Positions 18,497 to 41,490 of a stretch of DNA of 64,000 nt are shown here, piece after piece. Where the stretch lies: assembly GCA_015064485.1 (NCBI GenBank), contig SVSD01000005.1:1-64000 (forward strand), in the 5' to 3' direction. Origin of the DNA: Oscillospiraceae bacterium (GTDB lineage: Bacteria; Bacillota; Clostridia; Oscillospirales; CAG-382). The notes under the pieces were generated by a model. That model saw nothing but the letters and a program-made list of their open reading frames with translations, searched no databases and was not told the origin of the DNA. A program made the translations under genes and the position numbers. The number at the start of each line of letters is the position of its first letter. Within the stretch, counting starts at the first letter, position 1.

Positions 18497-18740
18497 TACT
18501 TTTTGCAAAATTATGCAACAAAAACTGCATAAAATACAAAAATGCTGATTTTTTTAATCAAAAACAGAAAATAATATATTATTATAACAGAAATAAACAA
18601 TATTTTCAACAGTGTAAGAACCAAATATATCCTGCATAAAACAAAAAAATTATGCAATCCGCACAGTAACATCTGCCAATTTTCAATCATAATATACATC
18701 GGGTGCAAAACACCCAATGTATTGCAAGGAGTTTTTTTCA

Positions 18741-18911
18741 TTGAATAACAAGAATAACAGTGAACAGTTTATACTTGCATCTGCCTATGTGCCATATCAG
18801 GTAAGCGATTTTGAAAACTTGTTTGAACCGGACGAGGCATTATGCAAAGGAACTGTCTTCCCCGAGCTGTTCCTTCCTCACTTGGGAATGGAGGAGTATT
18901 ATGAAAGATAG
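18741..18911 (+). CDS. cotJA: Spore coat protein CotJA
   Basis: A 56-residue small protein matching the CotJA family: AYVPYQ, a central acidic segment and the PELFLPHLGMEEYYER end. TTG 18741 is preferred because AAGGAG (18726-18731) lies 9 nt upstream; an ATG at 18717 would place that site inside the gene. CotJA is an inner coat component laid down by the mother cell with CotJB and CotJC. Its 3' end overlaps cotJB by 11 nt. A sigma-E promoter is expected upstream, but I do not see a convincing match. Confidence 0.85.
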   Translation: MNNKNNSEQFILASAYVPYQVSDFENLFEPDEALCKGTVFPELFLPHLGMEEYYER

Positions 18912-19161
18912 AACATCAAAAGCATATCTTATGAGAAAATGGCAAGAATATTCCTTTGCCGCATACGAAGCAAGACTTTATCTTGACACACATCCCGATT
19001 CCAAAGCCGCACTTCGTTATTTCAATAAGTTTAACAAAATGAGCATTGCTGTATCCAAAGAATTACAGGAAAAATACGGTGCAGTAAACACAAATCTTGA
19101 TACTGAACTTGAAAGCTGGAGCTGGATCGATATGCCCTGGCCCTGGACTAAGGAGGCATAA
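18901..19161 (+). CDS. cotJB: Spore coat protein CotJB
   Basis: An 86-residue CotJB-family protein, with the typical LMRKWQEYSFAAYEARLYLDTHP segment and the C-terminal WPWTKEA. GGAGG precedes ATG 18901, and longer upstream frames do not resemble the family. It lies between cotJA and cotJC in the standard order, with 2 nt before cotJC. Confidence 0.92.
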   Translation: MKDRTSKAYLMRKWQEYSFAAYEARLYLDTHPDSKAALRYFNKFNKMSIAVSKELQEKYGAVNTNLDTELESWSWIDMPWPWTKEA

Positions 19162-19163
19162 CT

Positions 19164-19754
19164 ATGTGGAATTACGAAAAGAAGCTTCAGTTTCCTATTA
19201 ATATAAAAGATACCGATGCAAGAACTGCTAAAATAATTATGAGCCAATACGGCGGACCCGACGGCGAAATTTCCGCATCGCTCAGATATCTCTCTCAACG
19301 CTTTACAATGCCTAACGGTGAACTGATAGGAATACTCACCGATGTGGGTACAGAAGAACTTGCGCATATGGAAATGGTTGCAAGCATTGTCCATCAATTG
19401 ACTAAAGGTTTGACAGAGAAACAAATCGAGGAGCAGGGATTTGCAGATTATTATGTTGATCACGGTGTAGGGATTTGGCCTCAGTCAGCAGGCGGTATTC
19501 CCAACAATGCTTTGACTTACGCTTCAAAAGGCGATATCATTGCAGATCTCAACGAAGATCTTGCAGCAGAACAAAAAGCCCGTGCGACTTATGACAATAT
19601 TCTGCGTCTTATCGACAACCCTGATGTAATAGCTCCCATAAGATTTTTAAGACAACGAGAAGTTGTTCATTATCAGCGTTTCGGAGAAGCTCTTGACAGA
19701 TATCAAAACGGAGATTTTGACCATATAAAAGTGTATACAGGACTTAAAAAATAA
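19164..19754 (+). CDS. cotJC: Spore coat protein CotJC (manganese catalase family)
   Basis: A 196-residue di-manganese catalase-like protein of the spore coat. The metal-ligand helices are visible in TDVGTEELAHMEM (Glu, His) and EDLAAEQKARATY...REVVHYQRF. It may retain catalase activity or be mainly structural; in Bacillus and Clostridioides it associates with CotJA and CotJB. AAGGAGG lies upstream of the ATG. Confidence 0.94.
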   Translation: MWNYEKKLQFPINIKDTDARTAKIIMSQYGGPDGEISASLRYLSQRFTMPNGELIGILTDVGTEELAHMEMVASIVHQLTKGLTEKQIEEQGFADYYVDHGVGIWPQSAGGIPNNALTYASKGDIIADLNEDLAAEQKARATYDNILRLIDNPDVIAPIRFLRQREVVHYQRFGEALDRYQNGDFDHIKVYTGLKK

Positions 19755-19872: not shown

Positions 19873-20418
19873 ATGAAAAAAATCATTATTGCTCTTACTT
19901 TGCTTTCACTTGCTTTTTCTTTCACTTCTTGCTTCAAACAGACTCAAACCGAAATCAATAACGATAACGGAACGACTCATTCAGAGAGTAATAAAGGCAA
20001 CGAAATTTTGGAAACGCCAACACCTGTAAGTGTGGATTATACCGTAAAATATTATGATATAATAACAGATGAATGGAAAGAGTTTTCGTCAACTGCAAAT
20101 TTTGAAGAACAGCCGGATCCTGCTTTCTTTATCAGTGAAGTTTCGCGACTTATGGGAATTTCCGTTTCCGTAAATAATATAACCGCTGAAAATGACAAAA
20201 TGACAATTGATTTTTCCGCTTCCTCTCCCCCTTTAAACGGCACAGGCTCTTATGAAGAGAACTGTATACTTGAAAGTATTTGCAGTACCCTTTTCGGTGT
20301 TTTTCCCGAAATAAATAACATACATATAACCCAAGACGGAAAGGAATACGACAGCGGACATCTCTCGCTGTCTCCGGACACCCCTTATGCTACAAGAACA
20401 TCAGAAAAACTCGGATAA
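19873..20418 (+). CDS. GerMN-domain lipoprotein
   Basis: A 181-residue predicted lipoprotein. A short signal peptide ends in the lipobox FTSC (Cys20), followed by a Ser/Thr/Asn-rich linker and a C-terminal GerMN-like (Sporulation and spore germination) domain at about residues 70-165. Evidence for that domain includes the SICSTLFGVFPEINNIHITQDGKEYD ending, which is shown here only in outline: a long helix, FPEI, and a QDGKE turn. GerM in B. subtilis is needed for sporulation and cortex formation, but stand-alone GerMN lipoproteins of Clostridia have no assigned role. GGAGG precedes ATG. The 3' end overlaps the next gene by 32 nt. Confidence 0.75.
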   Translation: MKKIIIALTLLSLAFSFTSCFKQTQTEINNDNGTTHSESNKGNEILETPTPVSVDYTVKYYDIITDEWKEFSSTANFEEQPDPAFFISEVSRLMGISVSVNNITAENDKMTIDFSASSPPLNGTGSYEENCILESICSTLFGVFPEINNIHITQDGKEYDSGHLSLSPDTPYATRTSEKLG

Positions 20419-25866: not shown

Positions 25867-25894
25867 TTGACAAATTTTAAAAAAATCGTATAAT
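25867..25894 (+). promoter_or_regulatory. Promoter of the acyl ligase-ACP-lnt operon
   Basis: TTGACA (25867-25872) and TATAAT (25889-25894) with a 16-bp spacer, about 55 bp before the first start codon; close to the sigma-A consensus. Confidence 0.8.
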
Positions 25895-25948: not shown

Positions 25949-27655
25949 TTGGCTAAGAAAACAAAAAGAGAGTTTACACCTATTGAAAATTTAAGAGATC
26001 TTTATTCCAAGCACGCAAATACACGCGGCGATAAAGTTGTTTTCAGATATTATGCAAAAGAAGGTAATATAGATACACTCACATACAGCCAGTTCAAAAC
26101 AAAGACTGACAGACTCGCCGCAGGTCTTGATTCTCTCGGACTTGCAGGTAAGCGCGTTGCGATAATCGGAGAAACTTCTCCCGAATATTTTATAACATAC
26201 CTTGCCGTTGTTTCAAGCGGCGGTGTAATTATTCCTCTTGACAAGGAACTTGTGGTAGACGAAATTTCCGGATTTTTAAACTCCAGCAAAGCTGATGCTA
26301 TCGTTTTTTCCCGCTCCTTCAACAAAAAGTTTGAAGCTTTCAGCGAAAACGCAAACGACATCGAATATTTTATTCCAATGGATCCTGACACTTATGATTT
26401 CGGAGATAATGAAAAAATCATTTCTCTGCAGAGAGTGTTGGAGCTTGGTCAGATAAACCTTGCAACTCGCGGATATAAGCTTCCCGAAAACCACGATCAG
26501 GAAAAAATGAGCATAATGCTTTTCACTTCCGGTACTACCGGTACAAGCAAATGCGTTATGCTTTCGGAAAAAAATATCGTTTCAGCTATAAACGCAGCAT
26601 GTACTTCAGTTGATTTTTGCCCTGATGATGTACTTCTCTCGGTTCTTCCGATACACCATACTTATGAATCAACTTGTATGCTTGCAGGCTTAAATTACGG
26701 TGTTGAAGTATGTATCAACGACAGTATCAAAAATGTTCTTAAAAATTTAAAGCTCTTTAAACCTACAGGTATTACACTTGTTCCCCTTTTCCTCAACACA
26801 TTCTACAAGAGAATTTGGGATGAAGCAAAGAAAAAAGGCAAAGACGATATGCTAAGACGCGGTATTGCAGTTGCAAGTGTTACTAAAAAAGTCGGTCTTG
26901 ATATAAGCCAGAATCTTTTTAAAGATGTTGTCGGTGCTTTTGGCGGCAGACTTAAAAAGATCGTCTGCGGCGGTGCTGCTCTTGATCCCACATTAGTAAA
27001 AAGCTTTGCTGTATTTGGCATTACCGTTGTTGAAGGCTACGGTATCACAGAGTGCTCACCTCTTATTTCCGTAAGCCCTTATTTCAAGCAGAAAAAAGGC
27101 TCTGTCGGTCCCAGCGTTCCTTGCTGTACTGTTATGATAGATAACCCAACACTTGATGATGACGGACATTACATCGGTGAGATTCTTGTCAAAGGCGACA
27201 ATGTAATGCTCGGTTATTACAACAACGAAGAAGCAACAAAGGAAGTATTTACCGATGACGGATGGTTCCGTACAGGTGATATCGGTTATATGGATTCCGA
27301 TAACTATATCTATATTACAGGCCGTAAGAAGAATGTTATCGTTTTAAATAACGGTAAGAATGTCTTCCCCGAAGAGCTTGAGGAGTATCTTGAAAAAATA
27401 GATATTATCAGCGAATGTGTTGTTGTCGGAAGAACAAATAAAGAAACCGGCGAAGTAGTTCTTACAGCGGTTGTATACCCGGCGTTTGATCTTCTTCCCG
27501 ACAAAGACATTTCAGAAGTTGCAGCTGAAGTTAAAGCTGAAATTGCTAAAGTAAATAAAATAGTTGCAGGCTTTAAACAGATACGCAATGTCGAAATCAG
27601 AAAAACTGAGTTTGAAAAGACTTCGTCAAGAAAAATAAAGAGATACACAGTTTAA
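25949..27655 (+). CDS. AMP-forming acyl-activating enzyme (long-chain acyl-CoA/acyl-ACP ligase)
   Basis: A 568-residue adenylate-forming ligase. The P-loop LFTSGTTGTSK (about 190-200), the adenine-binding VVEGYGITECSP, the GWFRTGDIGY hinge region and the C-terminal GRKKNVI and catalytic-lysine segment SSRKIKRY are present. It resembles long-chain fatty acyl-CoA synthetases and acyl-ACP synthetases. The next gene is an acyl carrier protein, and Lnt follows, so the natural acceptor may be this ACP rather than CoA; that is inference. A TTG start at 25949 has GGAGGT upstream. There is no membrane segment, so the enzyme should act in the cytoplasm. Confidence 0.88.
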   Translation: MAKKTKREFTPIENLRDLYSKHANTRGDKVVFRYYAKEGNIDTLTYSQFKTKTDRLAAGLDSLGLAGKRVAIIGETSPEYFITYLAVVSSGGVIIPLDKELVVDEISGFLNSSKADAIVFSRSFNKKFEAFSENANDIEYFIPMDPDTYDFGDNEKIISLQRVLELGQINLATRGYKLPENHDQEKMSIMLFTSGTTGTSKCVMLSEKNIVSAINAACTSVDFCPDDVLLSVLPIHHTYESTCMLAGLNYGVEVCINDSIKNVLKNLKLFKPTGITLVPLFLNTFYKRIWDEAKKKGKDDMLRRGIAVASVTKKVGLDISQNLFKDVVGAFGGRLKKIVCGGAALDPTLVKSFAVFGITVVEGYGITECSPLISVSPYFKQKKGSVGPSVPCCTVMIDNPTLDDDGHYIGEILVKGDNVMLGYYNNEEATKEVFTDDGWFRTGDIGYMDSDNYIYITGRKKNVIVLNNGKNVFPEELEEYLEKIDIISECVVVGRTNKETGEVVLTAVVYPAFDLLPDKDISEVAAEVKAEIAKVNKIVAGFKQIRNVEIRKTEFEKTSSRKIKRYTV

Positions 27656-27680
27656 TTTTATTACATTAGGAGATATGATC

Positions 27681-27908
27681 ATGTACGAACAGCTCAAAAC
27701 ATTATTAATTGAAGAAATGCAGATTGAAGAAGACAAAATCGCTCCCGAAGCAGAACTTGTAAATGATTTGGGATTCAATTCCCTTGAACTTGCAGAACTT
27801 GTTATCCATTGCGAAGAAACATTCGATATTGAAGTTGACGAAGAAATTGCAAAGGATTTCGTTACTGTAAACGATGTTGTCAAATATCTCGAAGAACTTA
27901 CAGCTTAA
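27681..27908 (+). CDS. Acyl carrier protein
   Basis: A 75-residue acidic four-helix ACP. The phosphopantetheine attachment Ser34 lies in LGFNSLELAEL; the residue before Ser is Asn where Asp is usual in fatty-acid-synthase ACPs (DSL), which suggests a specialised carrier. ATG 27681 is 8 nt after AGGAG; an ATG at 27675 is too close to the site. It lies between the acyl ligase and lnt and is not near fatty acid synthesis genes, so a dedicated partner role is likely. Confidence 0.9.
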   Translation: MYEQLKTLLIEEMQIEEDKIAPEAELVNDLGFNSLELAELVIHCEETFDIEVDEEIAKDFVTVNDVVKYLEELTA

Positions 27909-27915
27909 GTCTTTG

Positions 27916-29514
27916 ATGAATTCAGTATCCAAGTTCAGATATTACATCAGAAATAATGAAAAAATCCGCTTACTCGCTTGCGTTTTAAGCGGATTTTTTT
28001 CATCCGTACCTTTCTATTTCGAAAGACTTTTTATTATCGAATGGGTATGCTTCATACCGCTGTTCTGCACTCTCTTTTCTCGTAATAATAGCCGCCGTCA
28101 CACTTTTTTATATGGTTTTTTATTCCATTTTTCGAGATCGGTTATAATACTTTCCTGGTTTAAAGAACTGTATTTTATGCAGTCCTTGTCAATACCACCG
28201 ATTGTAATGATTTTTATTATCGCCGCCGCAATTATCGGCCTTTCCGCAATACAGGCGATTCCTTTCGGTTTGTGCTCATTTATAATTGTGAAATTTGAAG
28301 AAAAGAACCTTCCCTCTTTATTTTTGCCTTTAATTTCGGCAATACTTTTCACTGCAGGCGAGCTTATAAACACCGTTTTTCAGCAGGTTGGACTTGTAGG
28401 TTTTCCTTGGGTTCAAACTTACATTTCACAATCAGGTTTTATCTTCGGAATTCAATCCGCATCTGTTCTTGGTGCACATTTTATTTCATTTTTAATTATT
28501 ATTTGTAATGCATTTATTGCATGTGCCGTTACAAAATGCGGAATAGTACAAAAAATATGTGTTATTCTGCCAATCGGTCTGTTTACTCTAAATTTATTTT
28601 ATGGTATAATTTGCTTAGAAACAAACAGCACATTTGAAAATTCAATAAACGCACTCGCCTATCAGGACAACAATTCGTCATACAGCAAATGGAACGGATC
28701 ATCAAAAGACATCTGCGACGGCTTTATTTCGGATATGGAAAACACATATAATGAAAAAAATATGCCCGAACTTATCGTTCTTTCCGAAACTGTCTTTCCT
28801 ATCAGCATAAATAACAGTTCTACAGGAGCATATATAAGAAATGCGCTTTGCGATTTTACAGAAAAATATAAAAACACAATTGTCGCAGGCGGATTTTTAA
28901 CAGAAAACGGCAAAAGATATAATGCCCAATTTGTGTTTGAAAACGGAAGAATCCTTGATACCGTTTACAAAAAGCGTACACTTGTCCCGTTTGGCGAATA
29001 TATCCCGGCAGAAAAGCTTATTTTAAATCTTTTCCCTTTTTTTGATAGCTTTAATCTCAGCGGAGACGCCCTTACGAAAAGTGTTGATACAAATATTATA
29101 AAAAGTTCGGTCGGAAATCTCGGGGGTCTTATCTGCTACGATTCGATCTTTTATTACAACACTTCCACAAGCGTTAAAGACGGAGCGCAGATTCTTGTTC
29201 TGTCAACAAACGATTCGTGGTATAACGATTCAGGTGCCGCCTATCATCATTACGCACAGGCAGTTTTCAGAGCTGTAGAATCAAGAAAACCGCTTGTCCG
29301 TTCTGCAACAACAGGATTTTGCGGCATTATCGACAAATACGGACGCACTCTTGATAAAACAAAGCTTCTTCAAAAAGATTATGCCGCAGCTGAAATATCA
29401 AAAAATTCGGAACTATCAGCTTTTGTCCGCATGGGATACTCCTGGTATTACACCTTGTGTATAATAACCTTAGTGTTTATTGCTGTTTCAAAATTTAAAA
29501 GGAGAAAATTATGA
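27916..29514 (+). CDS. lnt: Apolipoprotein N-acyltransferase-like protein
   Basis: A protein of about 532 residues with several N-terminal membrane helices (about 20-220) and a C-terminal nitrilase-like domain (about 235-500). The Lnt catalytic triad appears intact: Glu (about 291) in SETVFP, Lys (about 351) in KKRTLVPFGEY and Cys (about 407) in GGLICYDSIF; the downstream STNDSWYND and LVRSATTGFCG segments also match. Lnt adds the third acyl chain to the lipoprotein N terminus and is usual in diderms; most Firmicutes lack it or use LnsAB or Lit. The start is uncertain: ATG 27916 avoids overlap with the ACP, while ATG 27874 is in frame. ATGA overlap with the next gene. Confidence 0.85.
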   Translation: MNSVSKFRYYIRNNEKIRLLACVLSGFFSSVPFYFERLFIIEWVCFIPLFCTLFSRNNSRRHTFLYGFLFHFSRSVIILSWFKELYFMQSLSIPPIVMIFIIAAAIIGLSAIQAIPFGLCSFIIVKFEEKNLPSLFLPLISAILFTAGELINTVFQQVGLVGFPWVQTYISQSGFIFGIQSASVLGAHFISFLIIICNAFIACAVTKCGIVQKICVILPIGLFTLNLFYGIICLETNSTFENSINALAYQDNNSSYSKWNGSSKDICDGFISDMENTYNEKNMPELIVLSETVFPISINNSSTGAYIRNALCDFTEKYKNTIVAGGFLTENGKRYNAQFVFENGRILDTVYKKRTLVPFGEYIPAEKLILNLFPFFDSFNLSGDALTKSVDTNIIKSSVGNLGGLICYDSIFYYNTSTSVKDGAQILVLSTNDSWYNDSGAAYHHYAQAVFRAVESRKPLVRSATTGFCGIIDKYGRTLDKTKLLQKDYAAAEISKNSELSAFVRMGYSWYYTLCIITLVFIAVSKFKRRKL

Positions 29515-31178
29515 AATTACAATCAAAGATCATCTCCCCTCTTGAAAAAGTATTTTATGACGACAGGTTTTCAAAGTTTAAAAAGTATCCCCAATCGTCA
29601 GCATTAATAGGTGAGAAACACAACTTTGTTGTTGTATATCAGGACACTGAATTTTTTACTACTCACTATTGCATACAAAAGTATTTCGTAAAAGTAAAAT
29701 CTGATATCAAAGAAAGTATTAAAGTATATACAGTCGAACATGTACCGGCCGTTTTTGCGGCTCCAATATACGAAGAGCCCGATAACTTTTTACGCCAGTA
29801 TCCGGGTCTTTATCCTGATCTCCTTGTTGAAACAAATGAAAACATCGAACATGTTATAGTTCACAGAGTATTAAATACCTTATGGGTGGAAATCGACACA
29901 GAAAACTTACCCGCAGGAACTCATAAAATAACTGTTGAATTTACTGATGCAGAGGGTAATATATTTTCATCCTGCACTCACAAATTGAATGTAATAAACG
30001 CCCGTCTTCCCGAACAAACTCTCAAAGTAACACACTGGATGCATACTGACTGTATTGCAGATTACTACAATTTGAAAATGTTTTCGGAAAAGCACTGGGA
30101 AGCTATCGAAAGTTATATAAAGATGTATGTAGAACTCGGTAATAATATGCTTTATACTCCTATGTTTACTCCTCCGCTTGATACAGCCGAAGGCGGAGAA
30201 AGAACAACAGTACAACTTATTGATGTTGAACTTTGCGACGGCAAATATACATTCAATTTTGAAAAATTCAGAAGATGGATAAACCTTGCAAGAAAATGCG
30301 GCGTCAAGTATTTTGAAATGAACCATCTGTTTACACAATGGGGAGCAAAACACGCTCCGAAAATAATCGCAACCGTTGACGGCAAAAAGAAAAAGATATT
30401 CGGTTGGGAAACAGATGCTCACGGAAGTGAATACGAAAGCTTCCTTGCACAGTTTATGTCGGCTCTCCTTCCCGAACTTGAAGCACTTAATATGAAAGAC
30501 TGCACTGTATTTCATATATCGGACGAGCCATTCATCGAGCACTTTGAAAGCTATAAGGCGTGCAGTGCCATAATTAGAAAATATCTTGCCGGATACAAGA
30601 TTATGGATGCTATGGCAAATATTGAATACTATAACGAAGGTCTTGTCGATATTCCGATTCCGTATGTAAAAGAATGTAAACACTTCTTTGCTGCAAATCC
30701 TAACCCGAGATTTGTATACTATTGCGGTGCCGATAAAGAGTTTATGGGAAGAGCGATTGCAATGCCTTCTTCAAGAAACAGAATCGCAGGTGTTCATTTC
30801 TATACAAATAATATTGACGGATTTTTGCATTGGGGATTTAATTTCTACAATGCAAGAAGCTCTGTAAAACATATCGACCCCTATTTTATCACCGATGCGG
30901 ACAAACAGTTCTGTGCAGGAGATTCATATCTTGTTTATCCTGGCGAAAATTTCAAGGTACACCCATCAATAAGAGCTTTTGTTTTCAGGGATGCTTTACA
31001 GGATATGCGTGCTCTGCAGCTTTGTGAGGCTCTTTGCGGGCGCGATGCTGTTATGAGTGCAATTGCTTCCTGCAACAGAAACGAAATCCCCGACATCCTT
31101 ACAACACCCTCGGATCCATACTTTACATTAAACCTAAGAGAAACAATAAACAATATGATACAAAATGAAATAAAGTAA
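29511..31178 (+). CDS. GH123/DUF4091-like glycoside hydrolase, cytoplasmic
   Basis: A 555-residue protein with an N-terminal beta-rich region (about 1-165), a central (beta/alpha)8 barrel-like part and a C-terminal DUF4091 segment (about 430-530). The HISDEPF motif (about residues 335-341) supplies the Asp-Glu pair used by GH123 beta-N-acetylgalactosaminidases for substrate-assisted catalysis. No signal peptide is present, so it should act inside the cell. It overlaps lnt by 4 nt with AAGGAG inside the end of lnt, so it is cotranscribed with the acylation genes. The sugar substrate is unknown; a link to lipid or glycolipid handling is only suggested by the operon. Confidence 0.75.
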   Translation: MKLQSKIISPLEKVFYDDRFSKFKKYPQSSALIGEKHNFVVVYQDTEFFTTHYCIQKYFVKVKSDIKESIKVYTVEHVPAVFAAPIYEEPDNFLRQYPGLYPDLLVETNENIEHVIVHRVLNTLWVEIDTENLPAGTHKITVEFTDAEGNIFSSCTHKLNVINARLPEQTLKVTHWMHTDCIADYYNLKMFSEKHWEAIESYIKMYVELGNNMLYTPMFTPPLDTAEGGERTTVQLIDVELCDGKYTFNFEKFRRWINLARKCGVKYFEMNHLFTQWGAKHAPKIIATVDGKKKKIFGWETDAHGSEYESFLAQFMSALLPELEALNMKDCTVFHISDEPFIEHFESYKACSAIIRKYLAGYKIMDAMANIEYYNEGLVDIPIPYVKECKHFFAANPNPRFVYYCGADKEFMGRAIAMPSSRNRIAGVHFYTNNIDGFLHWGFNFYNARSSVKHIDPYFITDADKQFCAGDSYLVYPGENFKVHPSIRAFVFRDALQDMRALQLCEALCGRDAVMSAIASCNRNEIPDILTTPSDPYFTLNLRETINNMIQNEIK

Positions 31179-31187
31179 ATATAAAAG

Positions 31188-31217
31188 AGAGGTACTTTCA
31201 TCTTTGAAAGCACCTCT
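31188..31217 (+). terminator. Terminator after the lnt operon
   Basis: Arms AGAGGTACTTTCA and TGAAAGCACCTCT with a 4-base loop and one mismatch, followed by TTTAATA. Confidence 0.75.
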
Positions 31218-31255
31218 TTTAATATATCCGAGTTTATATAAAACAATAAAATGAG

Positions 31256-31287
31256 CGGAGACGCATCGCACAAACGATACGCCTCCG
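31256..31287 (-). terminator. Terminator after the large surface protein gene
   Basis: Arms CGGAGACGCATCG and CGATACGCCTCCG (one mismatch) with a 6-base loop, located about 30 bp past the stop; followed on the minus strand by a short T-rich run. Confidence 0.7.
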
Positions 31288-31317: not shown

Positions 31318-34300
31318 TTAGTTTGCAGAAGATTCAACAGTTGTGATAATGTTTTTGATAAAATCATTCTGAGCATCAGTTCCTGTTGCTTCTTTTGCAA
31401 CATCATAAAGCGACAAGCTCTGTGCTTCGCCGTATGAGTAGCTGCCGTCTGCCTCGATTATATAAGGAACGACGGTAAATTCTTTCTGGTAGCCTGCTGC
31501 TGTATTCTTGATATTGTAAATTGCAAGAGAGAACGAGAAAGATGTACTGTCCTCAGCATATATCTTTTCAACATCAATATCCTTAGCTTTGCCTTCGCCG
31601 ACAAGAGCGTGAGTAAGAATATCATCACCAAGAAGCGCTGTAGGATATACAAGCATACCGTAGTTCGCTTTTGCAGCAGAACTTGCACCCGAAACTTTAA
31701 ATATAAATCTCAATGCCGCAGGATCATCAAGTCTTATCTGCGCACCTGTAAAGGACATTTCGCGAGGATAAATACTGTATGTGCCTGCTGTAAGACCTGT
31801 AAATTCTGCAGTTCCCTGCATATCGGTATACTGACCGATTACTCTTGCGGGCTTATCTGTTGTAAATTTTCCGTTTGCAAAAGATACAGGGTTTACATCT
31901 CCGTAGACATTGAATCTGTAAATATTAATATTATGGGCATCCCAGTTATTAAACTCAAAATTCAAATGACAATAGTCATATACCAAAATACCGCCGGTTA
32001 TTTTAGAAAGCTTATGAGTGTTCATATAACCAACGCTTCCGGATTTTATGATGAACTTTTCAGTACCGTTTATGCTAAATCCGCCTTCTGTTGTAGAGCC
32101 CCAACTATCGCCGTGTTCAATCTTTCCGATAGTAGCGCCGTCAACTATAAGTTCAAAATTACCATTCCAAACCTTTGAAGTTCCTGTAGCATTATAATAC
32201 GGACCAACTCTGAATTCCTTGATGTCACCTGACTTGAGGACAACTTTAAGATCGCCGTTCATATTGTTGTCTGACAAGCCTGCATGAATATACAAGCCCT
32301 GGCTTCCGCTTGCCTCAGTAACTCCTGTATCGAATGTAAGATCGTACATTTCTGTTGCGATATACTTCCATCCACCGTCAGCATAAAGATTTATGTTCTT
32401 AAACACAGTATCACTGTTAAGGTTAAGACCGCCACTCCACTTAATTGTGCCGCCCTGAAGTGTGAGAACGCCGGAAAAAGCAGGAAGCGACAACCATTCA
32501 GCGCTGAGAGTTCCAATGATTTCAACAGTTGCCTTATTGCCCGTCAAAACAGAAAGGCGTCTGTTAACTTCATCGATAGATTTGATTGCTGTTGCTTGTG
32601 TATAACCATCTCTTGAGTCATTACCGCTTTGCGGATTCAAGTAAATAACTTTTACAGCTTCTTCGCCAAATTCAGCTGCAAATTCCAAAACAGATCCGTC
32701 AAATACAAAATCGGAATTTGAGGTATATAATGTTTCTCCGGCTTTCCAACCCTTAAATTCAAAACCATCGGGTATTACCGCATCAGCAGGAAGACCGGGT
32801 ATCATAACTGTATCGCCTTCAAACCAAGATTTTTCAAAAGACTTATTTCCATAAGTAAATGTTACAGTCTTCGGAGCTGATGTGCTGAAACGAATAAGTG
32901 TTGTGCCTTTTTCAAAAGCATAAAGACCATCATCATTCGCCGTAACAGCTTTGCCGTTTGCGTAAATTGCACCTGCTCCGTCAGCATCCGCTTCAATACT
33001 GAAGTATACATTATTACCATCAAAAACAGGAGTAGCCTTACCGCCTCTGACCTGTATATTATAGTCAGCAATATCAAGAGTAGGAACAGTTTCCAAAAGC
33101 TCTGAATTGTTTACAACGAAAACAGAGTTTTGAACATCATTTTGATTATCTCTCATTGTTATTGCGGGAATAGCAGACTGATTTGCAAGGATTTCTTTTA
33201 CATTGTAGACAAGAGCAAGATTCTTGACGCTTCCGCTTTGTGCCGAATTATATGTTCCGGATCCGTAATAAATATTTTCAACAGTTCCGCCGTTAATAGT
33301 AACAACAGCATTACCGACAAGCTTATCTGCTTTACGGCTTCCCAAATAGAGGTCTGAAACAGTACCGCCGTTGATTTCGACATCAACATTGCCTGTTACA
33401 ACAGACGGTTGTGCATACTGATTATCGTTATACGCAACAAGTGAAAGGTTTTTGACAGTACCTCCGTTCACAACAAATCTGAAATCACCGTTTGCTGTGT
33501 GAGCACCGTCTATCCATCCGCCGAGAGGAGCAAGAATATCAACATAAACCTGCCCGCCTATTTCAGCAGAGAAGCCGCTGCCAGTATTTATATTTGCTAT
33601 ATAAAGGCCTCTTTCAACATCTAATTGCTGCCAGTTTTTAAATGTTGCGGTAGAAAATTCACAGCCATCACCGAAAACAAGATTTACATTCTTAAGCTGC
33701 AACCAGTTTTCATCAACATTACCTTTTCCGCGGATTATCTTAATATCGTCAAAAGTAATCTCGGATTTTGTACCTGTTGTAAAAATAATATGATTGTTTG
33801 TGCTCAAGGTTACTGTTGCGTTTGCATCGTATCCCACAATTTTAATGTCTTCAGATGCGAAAGTATATGTACCTTCAAGAATCGGGAGATTACCGGACAC
33901 AAAGACAGTACCAACACCGCCGGCGTGAGCAATAGCCGCATCTGCTTCTGCAAGAGTTGTGTAAACTTTTTCAGAAACGCCTTCAATTACACCGCTTGCG
34001 GAATAATATACTTTTGCAGCTTCAACAAATTCTGCTGTAAATTCAAGATGTTCTCCTGTGAAGAAATATTCGGAGCCCGCAGCATATACGGCATCTCCGG
34101 CTTTCCAGCCTTTGAATAACTTTTCGTCGGGTATTACAGCGTCATCGGGAAGCTGGGGCATCTGAACATCTTCTCCCGCAAACCAGGACTGTTCAAAGGA
34201 TTTATCATTATAGTTAAAGGTTACAGTCTGAGAAGAAACCGCGCGATATTGAACTAAAGTAGTTCCTTTTTCGAATGAATAAAGTCCGTCCGAATTTGGA

Positions 34301-36822
34301 GCAACTGCTTCCCCGTTAGCTAAAACAACATAATCAACATCAGAATCAAATTCCACATTGAAAAGCACATTATCATCAACAAATACAGCAACAGCCTTAC
34401 CGCCTCTGACCTGTATATTATAGTCAGCAACATCAAGCTCAGGAACATTTGCTGCAAGTTCAGCATTATTTACTATAACAACAGAATTCTGAACTTCATT
34501 CTGATGCTCTGTCTTTGCAATTGCAGGAATAGAATAATTGTTTTCAAGAATTTCTTTTAAATTATATACGAGAACAATATTCTTGATACTGCCGTTTCGT
34601 GCAGAATTATAAACATCTCCGTTACCGTAATAAAGATTTTGGATATTACCGCCATTGATTGTTACAACAGCATTGCCTTCGAGTTTATCTCCTCTGTTGC
34701 TTCCCAAGACAAGGTTTGAAATGTCACCGCCGTTGATTATAACATCAACATTGCCGTTTACCACAGAAGGAGTGCCCCAATAATTGCCGTTATTTGCAAC
34801 AAGATAAATGTTTTTAACAGTACCGCCGTTTACAACAAATTTATAATCAGCTGTGGAGCTGTGTGAATCACCGTATCCGCCGAGCGGAGAAAGTACATCA
34901 ATATAAACCTGTCCGTCGATTTCTGCAGTATAATTGTCGCCTGTGATAATATTTGCTATATAAAGACCTCTTTCAACAGGATTGCCCTGCCAGTCGTTAA
35001 ATGTAGCAGTTGCAAAATCACAATTATCTCCGAAAACAAGGTCAACATTTCTAAGCTGCAACCAGTTCTCATCGTTTCCGCCTTTACCACGGACTATTTC
35101 GATATCATCAAAAGTAATTTTCGTTCTTTCCTGTGATTCTATTGTAACATGGTTATTTGTGTTAAGAGTTACGGTTGCATCTTCATCGTATCCGATAAAT
35201 TTAATATCTGCAGATGCAAAAGTAAATGTTCCTTCGAGCATCGCAAGATCGCCGGAAACATATATTGTTCCTACGCCACCCGCACGATTGATAGCAGCAT
35301 CAGCGTCTGCGACATTTGTATAAACCTTATCTGTGATACCATCAATTGAACCTGTAGATGAATAATATATGATTGAAGGTTCAACGAACGAAGCTGTGAA
35401 TTCAAGGTATTCGCCTGTAAAATAGTACTTCGCACCTGCTGAATATCTTACACCGCCGGCTGTCCATCCTGCAAAAACTTTTCCCTCAGGTGCTTCTACA
35501 CCTGCAGGTAACTCATAATAAGAATTCTCATACCATTTTCTTATAATAGGATCAATACCGTTAGCTGTAAATTTAACCTCACAAAGGTTTGAATAAACAG
35601 CATCAAAGCCTACTCTTATATCGGAATACAAATATTCATCGCCGGGCATATAAATCTTGCCTTCGATATTGTCTTTCCAGCCATAAAACTTTGCATTCTG
35701 AGGATCGACAGCATCTTCGGGAAGTTCAGGTATAATTATTGTATCGTTACGGTAGCAGTCATCAAGATACAATTTACTGCCGTTATAATTAAAAGTAATT
35801 GTCTGAGGCTTTATATAAACACCACTGAAATATGCGTCGTTACCGTCAACGATCGAATAAACTTCTCCGGGATAATGCTTTGTACCGTAGTCGATTCTCA
35901 ACCAATGAGAAAATTTCTGTCCTTCAATTCTTTCAAATCCGGAATCTTCGTCTTCGGGATTAGGGAATACAAAAGTATCAAGGTCTTTTGTTCCTTCAAG
36001 TTTTAAAAATCTACCCTGTGCAGGTTCATCCTCAAGATAGTCATTTTGTGTAAGATAGAAAATAACTTCTCTTTCTTCAGAGGGCGGATTGGAAGGATCG
36101 TATGAACAGAAACGGATGCTCTTTATATAGAACACATCGCCTTTAAACATCTGAAGCCCTTTTTCGCCACCGAAGGGATACAAAGCCCACTGTTTCAAAG
36201 TGTATGTATCGGTATTTTCATAATAAAACACTTCAGGCCTGTTAAGAGTGCTGTTGAAAGCATCTTTATTGTTGAAAACAGCAGTAGCCCATTCGTTTGC
36301 GACAATCTCGTCAGTTGCATCACAGGTTACATATATATCATTTTTTGTGCCGTTCTGATTATAACTGTATGTATTGAACTTCATGACATTTCCGGTGAAA
36401 TCATCGCCGATAGTATCATTTTCGTCGCGATTTGTTGTGTCATAATAGTATTCGACAACTACATACTGCGCATCGTACATACGCACAAGCTGACCGTTGC
36501 TGTCGTACAGTTCATCGTAGCTGTAAAGGTTAAGCGAATAGTCTTCTTTTGTTTCATCACCTCTTACAGCTGTTATTTTGTCGGCTGTCTTACTGAACGC
36601 TTTAACAGTCTGACCGTTAAATTCTGTAATCTCAAGATTTACTCCGTTGATAACAAAATTTCCATCGGCTGCATAGGGGTCTTCGAATTTTGAAATCTCT
36701 CCCGGTTCAAGAACTCGGAACGAATAATCCACATCGGCAGCACTGACCGCAAACGATGTATAGGGTATCGTTGAGATCATACACAAAACCGCCAAAACGA
36801 GGCTTAAGATTCTGTTTTTCAT
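31318..36822 (-). CDS. Large secreted repeat protein (probable surface protein)
   Basis: An 1834-residue protein with a clear signal peptide (MKNRILSLVLAVLCMIS..., cleavage after AVSAA or nearby). The N-terminal 400 residues are unique. Then come two large modules of about 453 residues, each with an InlB/Flg_new-type block (GW.AG...Y..G..YFFTGE.LEF), an ADAAI...GGVGT segment and a beta-strand-rich part with repeated NGG motifs (VVNGGTVKN, INGGTV). These look like a beta-helix. A third InlB-like block and a shorter strand region follow. The last 180 residues contain the GAQIRLDDPAALRFIF segment seen in other clostridial surface proteins. There is no LPXTG, SLH or C-terminal helix, so anchoring is unclear. 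ATG 36822 follows GAGGAG. The function is probably adhesion or matrix structure, by analogy only. Confidence 0.8.
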   Translation of the reverse strand: MKNRILSLVLAVLCMISTIPYTSFAVSAADVDYSFRVLEPGEISKFEDPYAADGNFVINGVNLEITEFNGQTVKAFSKTADKITAVRGDETKEDYSLNLYSYDELYDSNGQLVRMYDAQYVVVEYYYDTTNRDENDTIGDDFTGNVMKFNTYSYNQNGTKNDIYVTCDATDEIVANEWATAVFNNKDAFNSTLNRPEVFYYENTDTYTLKQWALYPFGGEKGLQMFKGDVFYIKSIRFCSYDPSNPPSEEREVIFYLTQNDYLEDEPAQGRFLKLEGTKDLDTFVFPNPEDEDSGFERIEGQKFSHWLRIDYGTKHYPGEVYSIVDGNDAYFSGVYIKPQTITFNYNGSKLYLDDCYRNDTIIIPELPEDAVDPQNAKFYGWKDNIEGKIYMPGDEYLYSDIRVGFDAVYSNLCEVKFTANGIDPIIRKWYENSYYELPAGVEAPEGKVFAGWTAGGVRYSAGAKYYFTGEYLEFTASFVEPSIIYYSSTGSIDGITDKVYTNVADADAAINRAGGVGTIYVSGDLAMLEGTFTFASADIKFIGYDEDATVTLNTNNHVTIESQERTKITFDDIEIVRGKGGNDENWLQLRNVDLVFGDNCDFATATFNDWQGNPVERGLYIANIITGDNYTAEIDGQVYIDVLSPLGGYGDSHSSTADYKFVVNGGTVKNIYLVANNGNYWGTPSVVNGNVDVIINGGDISNLVLGSNRGDKLEGNAVVTINGGNIQNLYYGNGDVYNSARNGSIKNIVLVYNLKEILENNYSIPAIAKTEHQNEVQNSVVIVNNAELAANVPELDVADYNIQVRGGKAVAVFVDDNVLFNVEFDSDVDYVVLANGEAVAPNSDGLYSFEKGTTLVQYRAVSSQTVTFNYNDKSFEQSWFAGEDVQMPQLPDDAVIPDEKLFKGWKAGDAVYAAGSEYFFTGEHLEFTAEFVEAAKVYYSASGVIEGVSEKVYTTLAEADAAIAHAGGVGTVFVSGNLPILEGTYTFASEDIKIVGYDANATVTLSTNNHIIFTTGTKSEITFDDIKIIRGKGNVDENWLQLKNVNLVFGDGCEFSTATFKNWQQLDVERGLYIANINTGSGFSAEIGGQVYVDILAPLGGWIDGAHTANGDFRFVVNGGTVKNLSLVAYNDNQYAQPSVVTGNVDVEINGGTVSDLYLGSRKADKLVGNAVVTINGGTVENIYYGSGTYNSAQSGSVKNLALVYNVKEILANQSAIPAITMRDNQNDVQNSVFVVNNSELLETVPTLDIADYNIQVRGGKATPVFDGNNVYFSIEADADGAGAIYANGKAVTANDDGLYAFEKGTTLIRFSTSAPKTVTFTYGNKSFEKSWFEGDTVMIPGLPADAVIPDGFEFKGWKAGETLYTSNSDFVFDGSVLEFAAEFGEEAVKVIYLNPQSGNDSRDGYTQATAIKSIDEVNRRLSVLTGNKATVEIIGTLSAEWLSLPAFSGVLTLQGGTIKWSGGLNLNSDTVFKNINLYADGGWKYIATEMYDLTFDTGVTEASGSQGLYIHAGLSDNNMNGDLKVVLKSGDIKEFRVGPYYNATGTSKVWNGNFELIVDGATIGKIEHGDSWGSTTEGGFSINGTEKFIIKSGSVGYMNTHKLSKITGGILVYDYCHLNFEFNNWDAHNINIYRFNVYGDVNPVSFANGKFTTDKPARVIGQYTDMQGTAEFTGLTAGTYSIYPREMSFTGAQIRLDDPAALRFIFKVSGASSAAKANYGMLVYPTALLGDDILTHALVGEGKAKDIDVEKIYAEDSTSFSFSLAIYNIKNTAAGYQKEFTVVPYIIEADGSYSYGEAQSLSLYDVAKEATGTDAQNDFIKNIITTVESSAN
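32874..34232 (-). repeat. Second copy of a 1359-bp coding direct repeat
   Basis: Module of about 453 codons inside the large surface protein gene. The exact period is visible because a stretch of over 35 identical bases recurs at 33035 and 34394. Boundaries are approximate. Confidence 0.75.
34233..35591 (-). repeat. First copy of a 1359-bp coding direct repeat
   Basis: N-terminal partner of the module at 32874-34232. Its protein is clearly similar along its whole length, with most differences in the InlB-like block at the start. Boundaries are approximate. Confidence 0.75.
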
Positions 36823-36901
36823 AAAACTCCTCTTTCTTCTGATAATAATATTTTTTAACACCTGTAAATCAACGCATATTTACTGACATTAAACTGATTA
36901 T

Positions 36902-38317: not shown

Positions 38318-39265
38318 TTATAAACCATTGTTTACGGATGTTTTTTGCCTGTTATGACGACGGCGCTTTTTCACCTTGACACTTTTCATAGCAGCATCGA
38401 AATCCGAAGCTCTGAGTAAAGTTTTGACAGACTTATATTTGGAATTTACAAGCTTTTCGTTTATCTTTGCAACGATTATGTTTTCAGAAAAGCATCCGTG
38501 TTTTTCACATTCCCGAACAGCCGAAAATTGATTATAATACTTTCTGAAATACTCGGTTTTAAGAACAAGCGGTTTCCCGCACAAAGGGCACATATTATCG
38601 CAAGAGCTTGTAAATTCAAAAGCATCCCTTGGAGTTCCGAAATCATAATACCTGTATTTGCGCTTGAAATTTTCCTCTGTGCTTTTTTGCCTTTCCCTGC
38701 ATAGCAAGAGTCCTGCCGTCATATCCATTTTACCGCAGACCTCTGCAGTATATAAAGCGTCGTTAAGCGCATTGTGAAGCTGCTTATCCTGAACAATACC
38801 GAGGGTTTCACACGCTGTGGAAAGTGCAACCTGCTGATGTTCTGACTTGAATTGCTGATTGTAGATTATCTGCAGATTGTACCAATTATGTACGGTAACT
38901 CCCGTAATTTTATTTACATCAATATTCTGCTTGAGTATTGCAATATCATCGCTTCCCCAAATAAGAAACTCATGCTGTTCGCCGCACCAAGAAATAAAAT
39001 CGAAAAACACTTCCGTAAAGGGTGCAGCACCCTTTAATTCTTCTTTTGAAATGCCTGTAAGCTCTTCGATCTTAAAATGCATTTTGCGGTAAAAAACCGG
39101 CTTTACAAGTTTTGAATAAGTGCTGACAACCTTAAAGTCAGAATCAAGCTTAACCGCGCCTATTTGTATTATTTCGCCCACAAGTTGCTTTCGGGTATCT
39201 CCGATAAAAACTTTCGTACCCGGATACCCTTGATTCCATTCCATATCGAGAATAATATAGTTCAT
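38318..39265 (-). CDS. DEDD-family 3'-5' exonuclease (KapD-like)
   Basis: A 315-residue DnaQ-type exonuclease. Motif I is ILDMEWNQ (Asp, Glu), motif II is around SWCGEQHEFLIWGSDD, and motif III is HNALNDALYTAEV. The C-terminal third carries a CxxC pair (NMCPLCGK) and is basic, ending in KVKKRRRHNRQKT, which suggests nucleic-acid contact. B. subtilis KapD is a related inhibitor of sporulation (KinA pathway). ATG 39265 follows GAGGAA and overlaps the upstream gene stop by one base, so it is the last gene of the polysaccharide operon; a link to that pathway is not evident. Confidence 0.82.
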   Translation of the reverse strand: MNYIILDMEWNQGYPGTKVFIGDTRKQLVGEIIQIGAVKLDSDFKVVSTYSKLVKPVFYRKMHFKIEELTGISKEELKGAAPFTEVFFDFISWCGEQHEFLIWGSDDIAILKQNIDVNKITGVTVHNWYNLQIIYNQQFKSEHQQVALSTACETLGIVQDKQLHNALNDALYTAEVCGKMDMTAGLLLCRERQKSTEENFKRKYRYYDFGTPRDAFEFTSSCDNMCPLCGKPLVLKTEYFRKYYNQFSAVRECEKHGCFSENIIVAKINEKLVNSKYKSVKTLLRASDFDAAMKSVKVKKRRRHNRQKTSVNNGL

Positions 39266-41490
39266 CAAATTTCCTCTCCGTTTAATAGCTTGATGCATAT
39301 TTTTGCACTTGTTTTCGCCTTTTCAGAAAGAGTTTTACTGTTGTTTTCAACGGCCGTTTTTACATCAGTATAATTTTCAATTATTTCCTGAGTGAACCTT
39401 TTTAACAATTCAACATCAAAATTTTCTGCATTAACGCTTTTATCGATGTTTGCATATTCAAGAAAACCCGTAATTTTCGGATCGTAAACAATTCCTACAA
39501 CAGGCACAAGCGATGCAACCGAAAAGATAAGAGTATGAAGTCTCATACCTATCATAATATAGGTTTTAGATATCACACCTATCGTTTCCGAATAATCAAG
39601 TCCCGACGGAGTCATATACGCTTTATTTTTCATATGCGACATAACTTTGAGAGAAGCTTTTTCGTCATCCGGAGTCTTCATCGGGATAAACAGGATCTCA
39701 TAACCGTCATTTGCAAGTTCGTCAAGGTATCCGCCGAGTTTTTCGAAAAAATGCACATCATTTTTCATCCAATCACGAACCGAAACGCCGATAATATTCT
39801 TTTTCCGGTCAAGTCCCGTTTTTTCTAAAATGGTTTCAATAACCTTGTCGGGAGAGCCGGAAAGAGAAATTGCCGGGTCTGCAGTTACCATAACTTTATC
39901 TTTTGAAATACCCATGCGTTCAATTTCTGAAAGCGATGAATTTTCACGCAAAGTAATAAAATCCGCAAGATTTGTAGCTTCTGATGCAAATTTCAGATTC
40001 TTATCCTTTACAGGACCTATTCCGTTTGCGTAAATATAAACCTTGCATCCGAGTTTCTTTGCAAGTTTTATGACATTAAGGTAATACCAAAGAGATTTTG
40101 AGCTGGTGGCATCCTGTATAAGGCTGCCGCCGCCGTTTATAAGAAGTTTTGTTTGTTTCAATTTTTTTACTATTGAAAAATAATTAAATCTGAAGGACGA
40201 ATCTACACCGTAATTTTTCTTTGTATTTTTCGGCTTCATCGAAAATACATTTATTCTTATGTCTGGCTTTTCTTGTTTTAAGTCATTGATTATTGCATGT
40301 AACAGAGCGTCGTCACCGCAATTCTTAAATCCGTAATATCCGGAAAGGCATACATCGTATTTTTTATCGCTGTAATAGTCCGAAATCACTGCATTATATA
40401 TTTCAACATGGGAAAGGGCAAGTTTTTCATTTGAAAAATTGCCTGTTGCGCGGTTATATAGATTTTCCCCCATATTGTTTGCAAGGTTTTTGTCTTCAAT
40501 AAGTTTTATAAGCTTGTCTGCAAGATCGTTATGATTTTCTTTTTCAAACAAAAAGCCGCACTCACCGTCAACAATAAGATCGGGAATCCCGCCGACACGG
40601 GAACTGACTGTAGGCTTTTTAAGTCTTGCGCCTTCCATAAGCACATACGGAAAGCTTTCGCATCTTGATGTGAGAGTATTGATATCAATAAAATTAATAA
40701 AGCTGTATATATCCTTTATAAAACCTGCAAAAATAACTTTCTCCGAGATGCCAAGGCTTTCACAAAGTTTTACAAGCTCGGCTCTTCCCTCGCCGTCGCC
40801 GGCAATTATAAATTTCACATTATCTATTCTGGCGGATACAGCTTTTGCAGCCTTTAAAAACACATCATGACCTTTTACAAAATCATGCCGTCCTATAATT
40901 CCGACATAAGTGGTTTCCGGATCGTATTCGATACCGATACGGGAAGCAAACTCTTCCTTTGAGCAATACTCCATTTTTTCGGAATAGTCCATACCGTTAT
41001 ATACGGTAAAAACTGAATTTGGACGGAAGTTCCTCGATATAAGCATCTCTTTAAAATTTGAGGAAACCGCAATATAATAGTCAAATTTTTTAAGCGAATA
41101 TATATTCAAAGAAGTATATATAAGTTTCTTATAAAATCCGTCAAAATCAAGAAGATAATCACTGTGCACAGTTGTAATAAAAGGAATTTTGACACCTCGT
41201 TTTTTCAAAGCAACAGCAATAAAGTTTGCACGGGCTCCGTGGCAATGAACGATATCAAACCCTTCATCAATGATTTCGATAAGTCTTTCAAGAACCGACA
41301 TATCGGTTCTTCCTTTTTGTTCTATAAGTTCACTGTCGACAGGCATTCTTGATAATTCATCATAAAATACGCCCTTGGAAAAGCAAACCATTTTTACATC
41401 AATCTTATTTACAAGAGCGCTGAGCAAAGCAAAAACATGAGTTTTTGCGCCGCCTGTATCACCGCCGCTGATAAGATGTAATACTTTCAT
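39265..41490 (-). CDS. Fusion of a GT4 glycosyltransferase and a CsaB-type polysaccharide pyruvyl transferase
   Basis: A 741-residue two-domain protein. Residues 1-370 form a GT-B fold retaining glycosyltransferase (family GT4): HLISGGDTGGAKTHV at the start, DIVHCHGARAN, and the nucleotide-sugar segment EGARLKKPTVSSRVGGIPDL with its Glu. Residues from about 378 form a polysaccharide pyruvyl transferase of the CsaB type: LSGYYGFKNCGDDALL, LINGGGSLIQD, and IGMRLHTLIFS. CsaB adds a ketal pyruvate to secondary cell wall polymer, which anchors SLH-domain proteins. The fusion suggests that sugar addition and pyruvylation are coupled. Confidence 0.88.
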   Translation of the reverse strand: MKVLHLISGGDTGGAKTHVFALLSALVNKIDVKMVCFSKGVFYDELSRMPVDSELIEQKGRTDMSVLERLIEIIDEGFDIVHCHGARANFIAVALKKRGVKIPFITTVHSDYLLDFDGFYKKLIYTSLNIYSLKKFDYYIAVSSNFKEMLISRNFRPNSVFTVYNGMDYSEKMEYCSKEEFASRIGIEYDPETTYVGIIGRHDFVKGHDVFLKAAKAVSARIDNVKFIIAGDGEGRAELVKLCESLGISEKVIFAGFIKDIYSFINFIDINTLTSRCESFPYVLMEGARLKKPTVSSRVGGIPDLIVDGECGFLFEKENHNDLADKLIKLIEDKNLANNMGENLYNRATGNFSNEKLALSHVEIYNAVISDYYSDKKYDVCLSGYYGFKNCGDDALLHAIINDLKQEKPDIRINVFSMKPKNTKKNYGVDSSFRFNYFSIVKKLKQTKLLINGGGSLIQDATSSKSLWYYLNVIKLAKKLGCKVYIYANGIGPVKDKNLKFASEATNLADFITLRENSSLSEIERMGISKDKVMVTADPAISLSGSPDKVIETILEKTGLDRKKNIIGVSVRDWMKNDVHFFEKLGGYLDELANDGYEILFIPMKTPDDEKASLKVMSHMKNKAYMTPSGLDYSETIGVISKTYIMIGMRLHTLIFSVASLVPVVGIVYDPKITGFLEYANIDKSVNAENFDVELLKRFTQEIIENYTDVKTAVENNSKTLSEKAKTSAKICIKLLNGEEI

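Follow-up and report, generated by a model that had tools for sequence, protein, structure and literature searches.

A ligase and dedicated acyl carrier protein encoded ahead of lnt in a clostridial family: a candidate entry route for scavenged fatty acids

Why should a clostridial genome carry genes for an AMP-forming acyl-activating enzyme and an acyl carrier protein (ACP) directly ahead of the gene for an apolipoprotein N-acyltransferase (Lnt)? This arrangement is found in the 64,000-nucleotide stretch analyzed here (referred to as the window), positions 1 to 64,000 of contig SVSD01000005.1 of Oscillospiraceae bacterium (GenBank assembly GCA_015064485.1; GTDB lineage Clostridia; Oscillospirales; CAG-382), whose nearest named relatives are the metagenome genomes Oscillospiraceae bacterium SIG695 and Clostridia bacterium RGIG7446 (water buffalo colon). 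A preliminary description of the locus had suggested a route in which the first two gene products load a chosen fatty acid on ACP and pass it to the lipoprotein system or to another acceptor. The reading favored here, to which we assign a probability of roughly 0.55, is that the ligase and its dedicated ACP convert scavenged fatty acids into acyl-ACP for use by the cell, and that Lnt is an ordinary enzyme that is coupled to the pair indirectly, if at all.

The Ligase, Its Carrier Protein, and Lnt

The promoter and the three genes, which are consecutive on the + strand as originally described, are as follows.

25867..25894, + strand: sigma-A type promoter TTGACA-16-TATAAT (12 of 12 matches), upstream of the ligase gene
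25949..27655, + strand: AMP-forming acyl ligase, probable acyl-ACP synthetase (568 amino acids [aa], TTG start, PF00501)
27681..27908, + strand: dedicated acyl carrier protein (75 aa, PF00550, DLGFNSLEL)
27916..29514, + strand: apolipoprotein N-acyltransferase Lnt (532 aa, identified by TIGR00546, catalytic triad, and fold)

In a domain profile search, the ligase matches PF00501 at 222 bits and the AMP-binding C-terminal domain PF23562 at 35 bits, and its best NCBIfam matches are long-chain fatty acid ligases, every one of them below its cut-off. Apart from these two domains, the profile search of the ligase found no fused acyltransferase domain (PF01553), and a bifunctional Aas of the Escherichia coli type was ruled out for want of the N-terminal lysophospholipid acyltransferase domain. 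Characterized acyl-ACP synthetases for fatty acid scavenging include AasS and AasC (PMC11271967, PMC6167442); no tryptophan lies near the PIHHTYES stretch of the window ligase, a stretch only tentatively placed against the gating Trp230 of AasS.

The ACP matches PF00550 at 44.9 bits and has a serine, Ser34, at the expected phosphopantetheine site. Its FNSLE motif, previously singled out as unusual, is invariant in all seven aligned orthologues and is thus a family signature. The genome of the window also encodes a second, ordinary ACP with the sequence DLGADSLDL (ADSLD motif) at G000:C7:137876-138091. The first two genes can soundly be taken to encode an activating enzyme with an ACP of its own, and it is solely the conserved ACP partner that suggests loading of ACP rather than coenzyme A (CoA) by the ligase.

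With the TIGR00546 model, whose curated equivalog cut-off is 132.9, the Lnt protein reaches 213.6 bits; it comprises a membrane domain (LNT_N, PF20154) and a nitrilase-like domain (CN_hydrolase, PF00795). The expected Glu, Lys, and Cys are in place and in order (E291, K353, C407), are invariant in a 17-row alignment, and align with the triad of solved Lnt; W259 and E361 are also conserved. An AlphaFold model built from seven sequences, with a mean predicted local distance difference test score (pLDDT) of 77.8 and a predicted template modeling score (pTM) of 0.80, matches 24 solved Lnt chains ahead of any other protein at a template modeling (TM) score of about 0.75. Beside the catalytic Cys, Asp409 replaces Glu389 of E. 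coli Lnt, at a position that lies outside the family definition. Asp occupies this position in every one of the 17 proteins of the alignment and in most of the Lnt taken from across the class, the clostridial enzymes (27916-29514, L159-L170) reading C-[YF]-D against C-Y-E in E. coli; Glu is found in both Lnt of family f74. Taken together, the profile, residues, and fold are best read as those of a classical phospholipid-dependent enzyme. Lgt and LspA are present in the same genome and lipobox proteins are also seen, which, with a true Lnt, makes the classical three-step lipoprotein pathway plausible.

Reviews describe Lnt as absent from low-GC Gram-positive bacteria (PMC8689077, PMC7530257), and its presence here is as unexpected as the preliminary description had held it to be for monoderm Firmicutes. 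The Lnt of these Clostridia contradicts the statement in the reviews: the TIGR00546 cut-off is passed by 12 of 291 genomes in a sample of the class, including that of the window, and a profile constructed from these Lnt proteins matches strongly in 26 of 37 genomes of the window's family.

Distribution of the Pair and Loss of Fatty Acid Synthesis

The trio of genes was surveyed in the genome of the window and 60 relatives, and family counts were made on 37 genomes; all are drafts, mostly from metagenomes, that of the window being 94% complete. Within the family, the ligase-ACP pair is present in 31 of the 37 genomes, and Lnt adjoins it in 9, is encoded elsewhere in 15, and is absent in 7. The pair is also found in families f6, f17, and f20, and two genomes have Lnt without it, namely G028 and G014, the latter having kept the ACP with no neighboring ligase. 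An ACP gene followed directly by lnt was seen in genus g1 (G000-G003), in genus g4 (G007, G019, G027, and G034, where the ligase gene of G034 is on a separate contig), and in a single genome of genus g8 (G022); the other three of the four g8 genomes keep the pair without lnt. The trio is flanked by metG and tatD on one side and a glycoside hydrolase family 123 (GH123) gene on the other in g1, and by nusB and xseA on one side and a GntR regulator gene on the other in g4. Where lnt was examined in further genera, it is mostly preceded by genes for ParA, ParB, SerS, a protein with MORN repeats, and a TIM-barrel protein, with an esterase gene next. The pair itself adjoins spoVAC-spoVAD-spoVAE in most of the family's genera and is typically transcribed away from these genes (e.g., L129:10190-11657). 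Conservation of the trio, one of the expectations attached to the locus, thus holds for gene order in g1, g4, and a single g8 genome despite changed flanks, but elsewhere the pair mostly stands apart from Lnt. With 31 genomes holding the pair and only 9 the trio, use of the pair solely for Lnt, which the earlier proposal implied, was ruled out.

The ligase and Lnt trees both fit a trio that arose once, in a common ancestor of g1, g4, and g8, with some g8 genomes losing lnt afterwards; in the Lnt tree, the group that unites all trio members has a support of 88. The relatives show the ligase-ACP pair to be an older, independent unit that Lnt joined later.

The genome of the window gave no match to the beta-ketoacyl synthase profile (PF00109), which matched in 14 of 14 control genomes. 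With that of the window included, ketoacyl synthase is missing from 23 of the family's 37 genomes, among which 14 reach a completeness of at least 90% and many exceed 95%, and from genera g2, g4, and g6 throughout, whereas the sister genomes G002-G004 possess a fab cluster. Fatty acid synthesis has therefore probably been lost in the lineage of the window and in 22 further genomes of the family. A comparison of G003 with the genome of the window, aimed at an empty site for the lost fab cluster, gave no shared gene order. A DegV/FakB protein (PF02645) had no match in the genome of the window, the one genome in which FakB was sought. Literature searches on fatty acid auxotrophy in Clostridia gave nothing usable.

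Fatty Acid Entry and Rival Explanations

According to the favored reading, the ligase would adenylate free fatty acids, whether from outside the cell or released from lipids, and transfer them onto its own ACP, and the resulting acyl-ACP would feed phospholipid synthesis. In the lineage of the window, where the fatty acid synthase is seemingly lost and no FakB was found, the pair would be the main or only source of acyl-ACP. Lnt would transfer an acyl chain from an outer-face phospholipid to the lipoprotein N-terminus after the action of Lgt and LspA, and any link between it and the pair would be indirect, with Lnt consuming phospholipid and acyl-ACP replacing it. What the analysis establishes directly is the content, order, and distribution of the genes, the two trees, the lack of ketoacyl synthase and DegV matches, and the presence of Lgt and LspA; loading of the ACP, its use for phospholipid, the activity of Lnt, and any functional coupling are predictions from these.

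Parallels can be drawn with several known systems. The AasS enzyme of Vibrio harveyi resembles the proposed ligase in being a soluble acyl-ACP synthetase that channels exogenous fatty acids into lipids; it is not known to have a dedicated ACP partner (PMC11271967), unlike the arrangement seen here, although the specificity of the window ligase for its ACP is itself inferred. AasC of Chlamydia trachomatis, whose genome also bears Lnt, is a stand-alone acyl-ACP synthetase with no fused acyltransferase and uses exogenous fatty acids (PMC6167442). Unlike in the window, however, its neighbor is the acyltransferase LpaT rather than an ACP and Lnt, Chlamydia is able to synthesize fatty acids, and ACP loading has been shown for AasC, whereas it is predicted for the window ligase. 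The FakAB system of Gram-positive bacteria accomplishes the same task of exogenous fatty acid use, but by way of acyl-phosphate (PMC11271967). Lipoprotein N-acylation of the kind proposed here is also carried out in a monoderm Firmicute by LnsAB of Staphylococcus aureus, which is an unrelated two-component system, whereas the window encodes a true Lnt homologue (PMC7387801, PMC7530257).

Several observations weigh against the favored reading. No sequence test applied here tells ACP-loading from CoA-loading ligases, and 69 of 80 close ligase loci from GTDB genomes have no ACP within about 6 kb, so that a neighboring ACP characterizes these ligases in this family and in a few more, but not the ligase family as a whole; a quick tree of ligases with and without an ACP, which carries a long-branch warning, shows only that both kinds exist. 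The pair is kept in 13 of the 14 genomes at least 90% complete that lack ketoacyl synthase, but also in 9 of the 11 near-complete genomes in which the synthase is present, and is thus general rather than a mark of loss; the direction fits but the difference is small, and we do not treat the correlation as proof. The case for loss of fatty acid synthesis depends on a single family, PF00109, and on draft genomes from metagenomes, each missing-gene result rests on one profile, FakA, PlsX, and PlsY were not searched for, and the search for FakB was limited as stated above. The neighboring spoVA genes, furthermore, could point to a role in sporulation.

A more far-reaching version of the favored reading, which is put forward tentatively and with the odds somewhat against it, is that this widespread family of gut Clostridia, having lost FakAB as well as fatty acid synthesis, subsists on scavenged fatty acids by way of the ligase and its private ACP, a third route in monoderm Firmicutes whose genes, in some genera, share an operon with that of a true Lnt producing triacylated lipoproteins. 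If the scavenging reading is right, these common gut bacteria must obtain fatty acids from the host, the diet, or their neighbors; this would help to account for the difficulty of growing them and would predict that a simple supplement to the culture medium suffices. Triacylated lipoproteins, relevant to TLR2 recognition, would be the consequence of a true Lnt in monoderm Clostridia, and the trio offers a tractable case for studying whether lipoprotein N-acylation and phospholipid repair are coupled outside diderms.

Among the alternatives, the one that best survives is co-location without function, in which a single insertion, predating the split of g1, g4, and g8, put lnt behind a strongly expressed pair and the gene has been passively carried since. 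That 15 genomes with the pair encode Lnt at another site, which in most of the examined ones is the stable parA-parB-serS neighborhood, fits this explanation, as do the single origin with which both trees agree and the absence of lnt from three of four g8 genomes that retain the pair. We nevertheless regard it as unlikely, since the trio has survived a full exchange of both flanks between g1 and g4, with Lnt diverging to about 26% identity, and short passive operons often do not survive such exchange.

Lysophospholipid repair offers a second alternative, in which Lnt releases lysophospholipid and the acyl-ACP of the pair is used by a separate acyltransferase to re-acylate it, in the manner of a split Aas or of AasC and LpaT. 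In E. coli, aas is not known to share an operon with lnt. An acyl-ACP synthetase activity and Lnt are linked in that species through lysophospholipid re-acylation: the lysophospholipid that Lnt produces is flipped by LplT, after which Aas uses acyl-ACP to re-acylate it (PMC11416262, PMC4666226). Phospholipid recycling during lipoprotein maturation has likewise been proposed as the role of the split Chlamydia pair (PMC6167442). The E. coli Aas differs from the window ligase in being fused to its acyltransferase and in borrowing the ACP of the cell, and E. coli is a diderm. PlsC-type acyltransferases that could complete such a cycle are present in the genome of the window (three matches, two of which are broken ends of one gene), but the operon contains neither an acyltransferase nor an LplT-like flippase, so that even an indirect connection between Lnt and repair would be conjectural here, and the pair is retained in seven family genomes without Lnt. 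A dedicated repair function is accordingly judged improbable.

Slightly less probable still is that the pair makes a special acyl product, such as a spore or surface lipid, rather than bulk phospholipid. The spoVA-type genes that stand beside the pair in 15 examined loci, typically in divergent orientation, would suit such a product, as would the FNSLE motif that sets this ACP apart from an ordinary one; no tailoring acyltransferase travels with the pair, however, and its promoter is of the perfect housekeeping type.

ACP is a cytoplasmic protein. The characterized Lnt, by contrast, binds phosphatidylethanolamine and takes its sn-1 chain onto the catalytic cysteine with the nitrilase domain outside the membrane (PMC8689077), which makes direct feeding from ACP unlikely. 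The notion that Lnt receives its acyl chain straight from the acyl-ACP of the pair, for which the gene order conserved in three genera can be cited, is scarcely credible and was discarded on the strength of that extracytoplasmic, phospholipid-using active site, of the match of the window Lnt to the same type in residues and fold, and of a distribution in which most pair-holding genomes carry Lnt elsewhere or not at all.

Operon Layout and Neighboring Genes

Downstream of lnt, the following features complete the locus.

29511..31178, + strand: GH123 catalytic-domain protein (PF13320, 338 bits), fourth gene of the unit
31188..31287, no strand assigned: two strong hairpins, probable terminators, between the convergent genes for the GH123 protein and a 1847-aa protein

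The ligase, ACP, lnt, and GH123 genes all lie on the + strand within the window and form one apparent transcription unit, with 25 base pairs (bp) between ligase and ACP, 7 bp between ACP and lnt, and a 4-bp overlap between lnt and the GH123 gene. Placement of the trio in one operon was thus correct as far as it went, but the overlap makes the operon one of four genes rather than three. The GH123 gene adjoins lnt in g1 only (L029, L030, L031), not in g4. Equally perfect promoters precede the ligase in two relatives, L047 and L116. No clear ribosome-binding site was seen for lnt. A terminator-like hairpin with a T run lies just inside the start of lnt (27974-27992), with a weaker one in a similar place in L047, and may either arise incidentally from codon conservation or act as a partial stop separating ACP from lnt. 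The hairpins at 31188..31287, with stems of 14 and 13 pairs scored on the - strand, may serve both convergent genes. The 1847-aa product of the gene beyond them (31318-36861, - strand) is a repeat protein, probably secreted, that is conserved in g1 and has only sub-threshold Pfam matches.

Elsewhere in the window, spore coat genes at 18717-19751 encode CotJA (PF11007) and a CotJC-type Mn-catalase, with a likely cotJB between them, and the lineage looks spore-forming; a gene for a Germane-domain lipoprotein comes next (19873-20418). A single gene at 39265-41490 fuses a glycosyltransferase domain (PF00534) to a polysaccharide pyruvyl transferase domain (PF04230).

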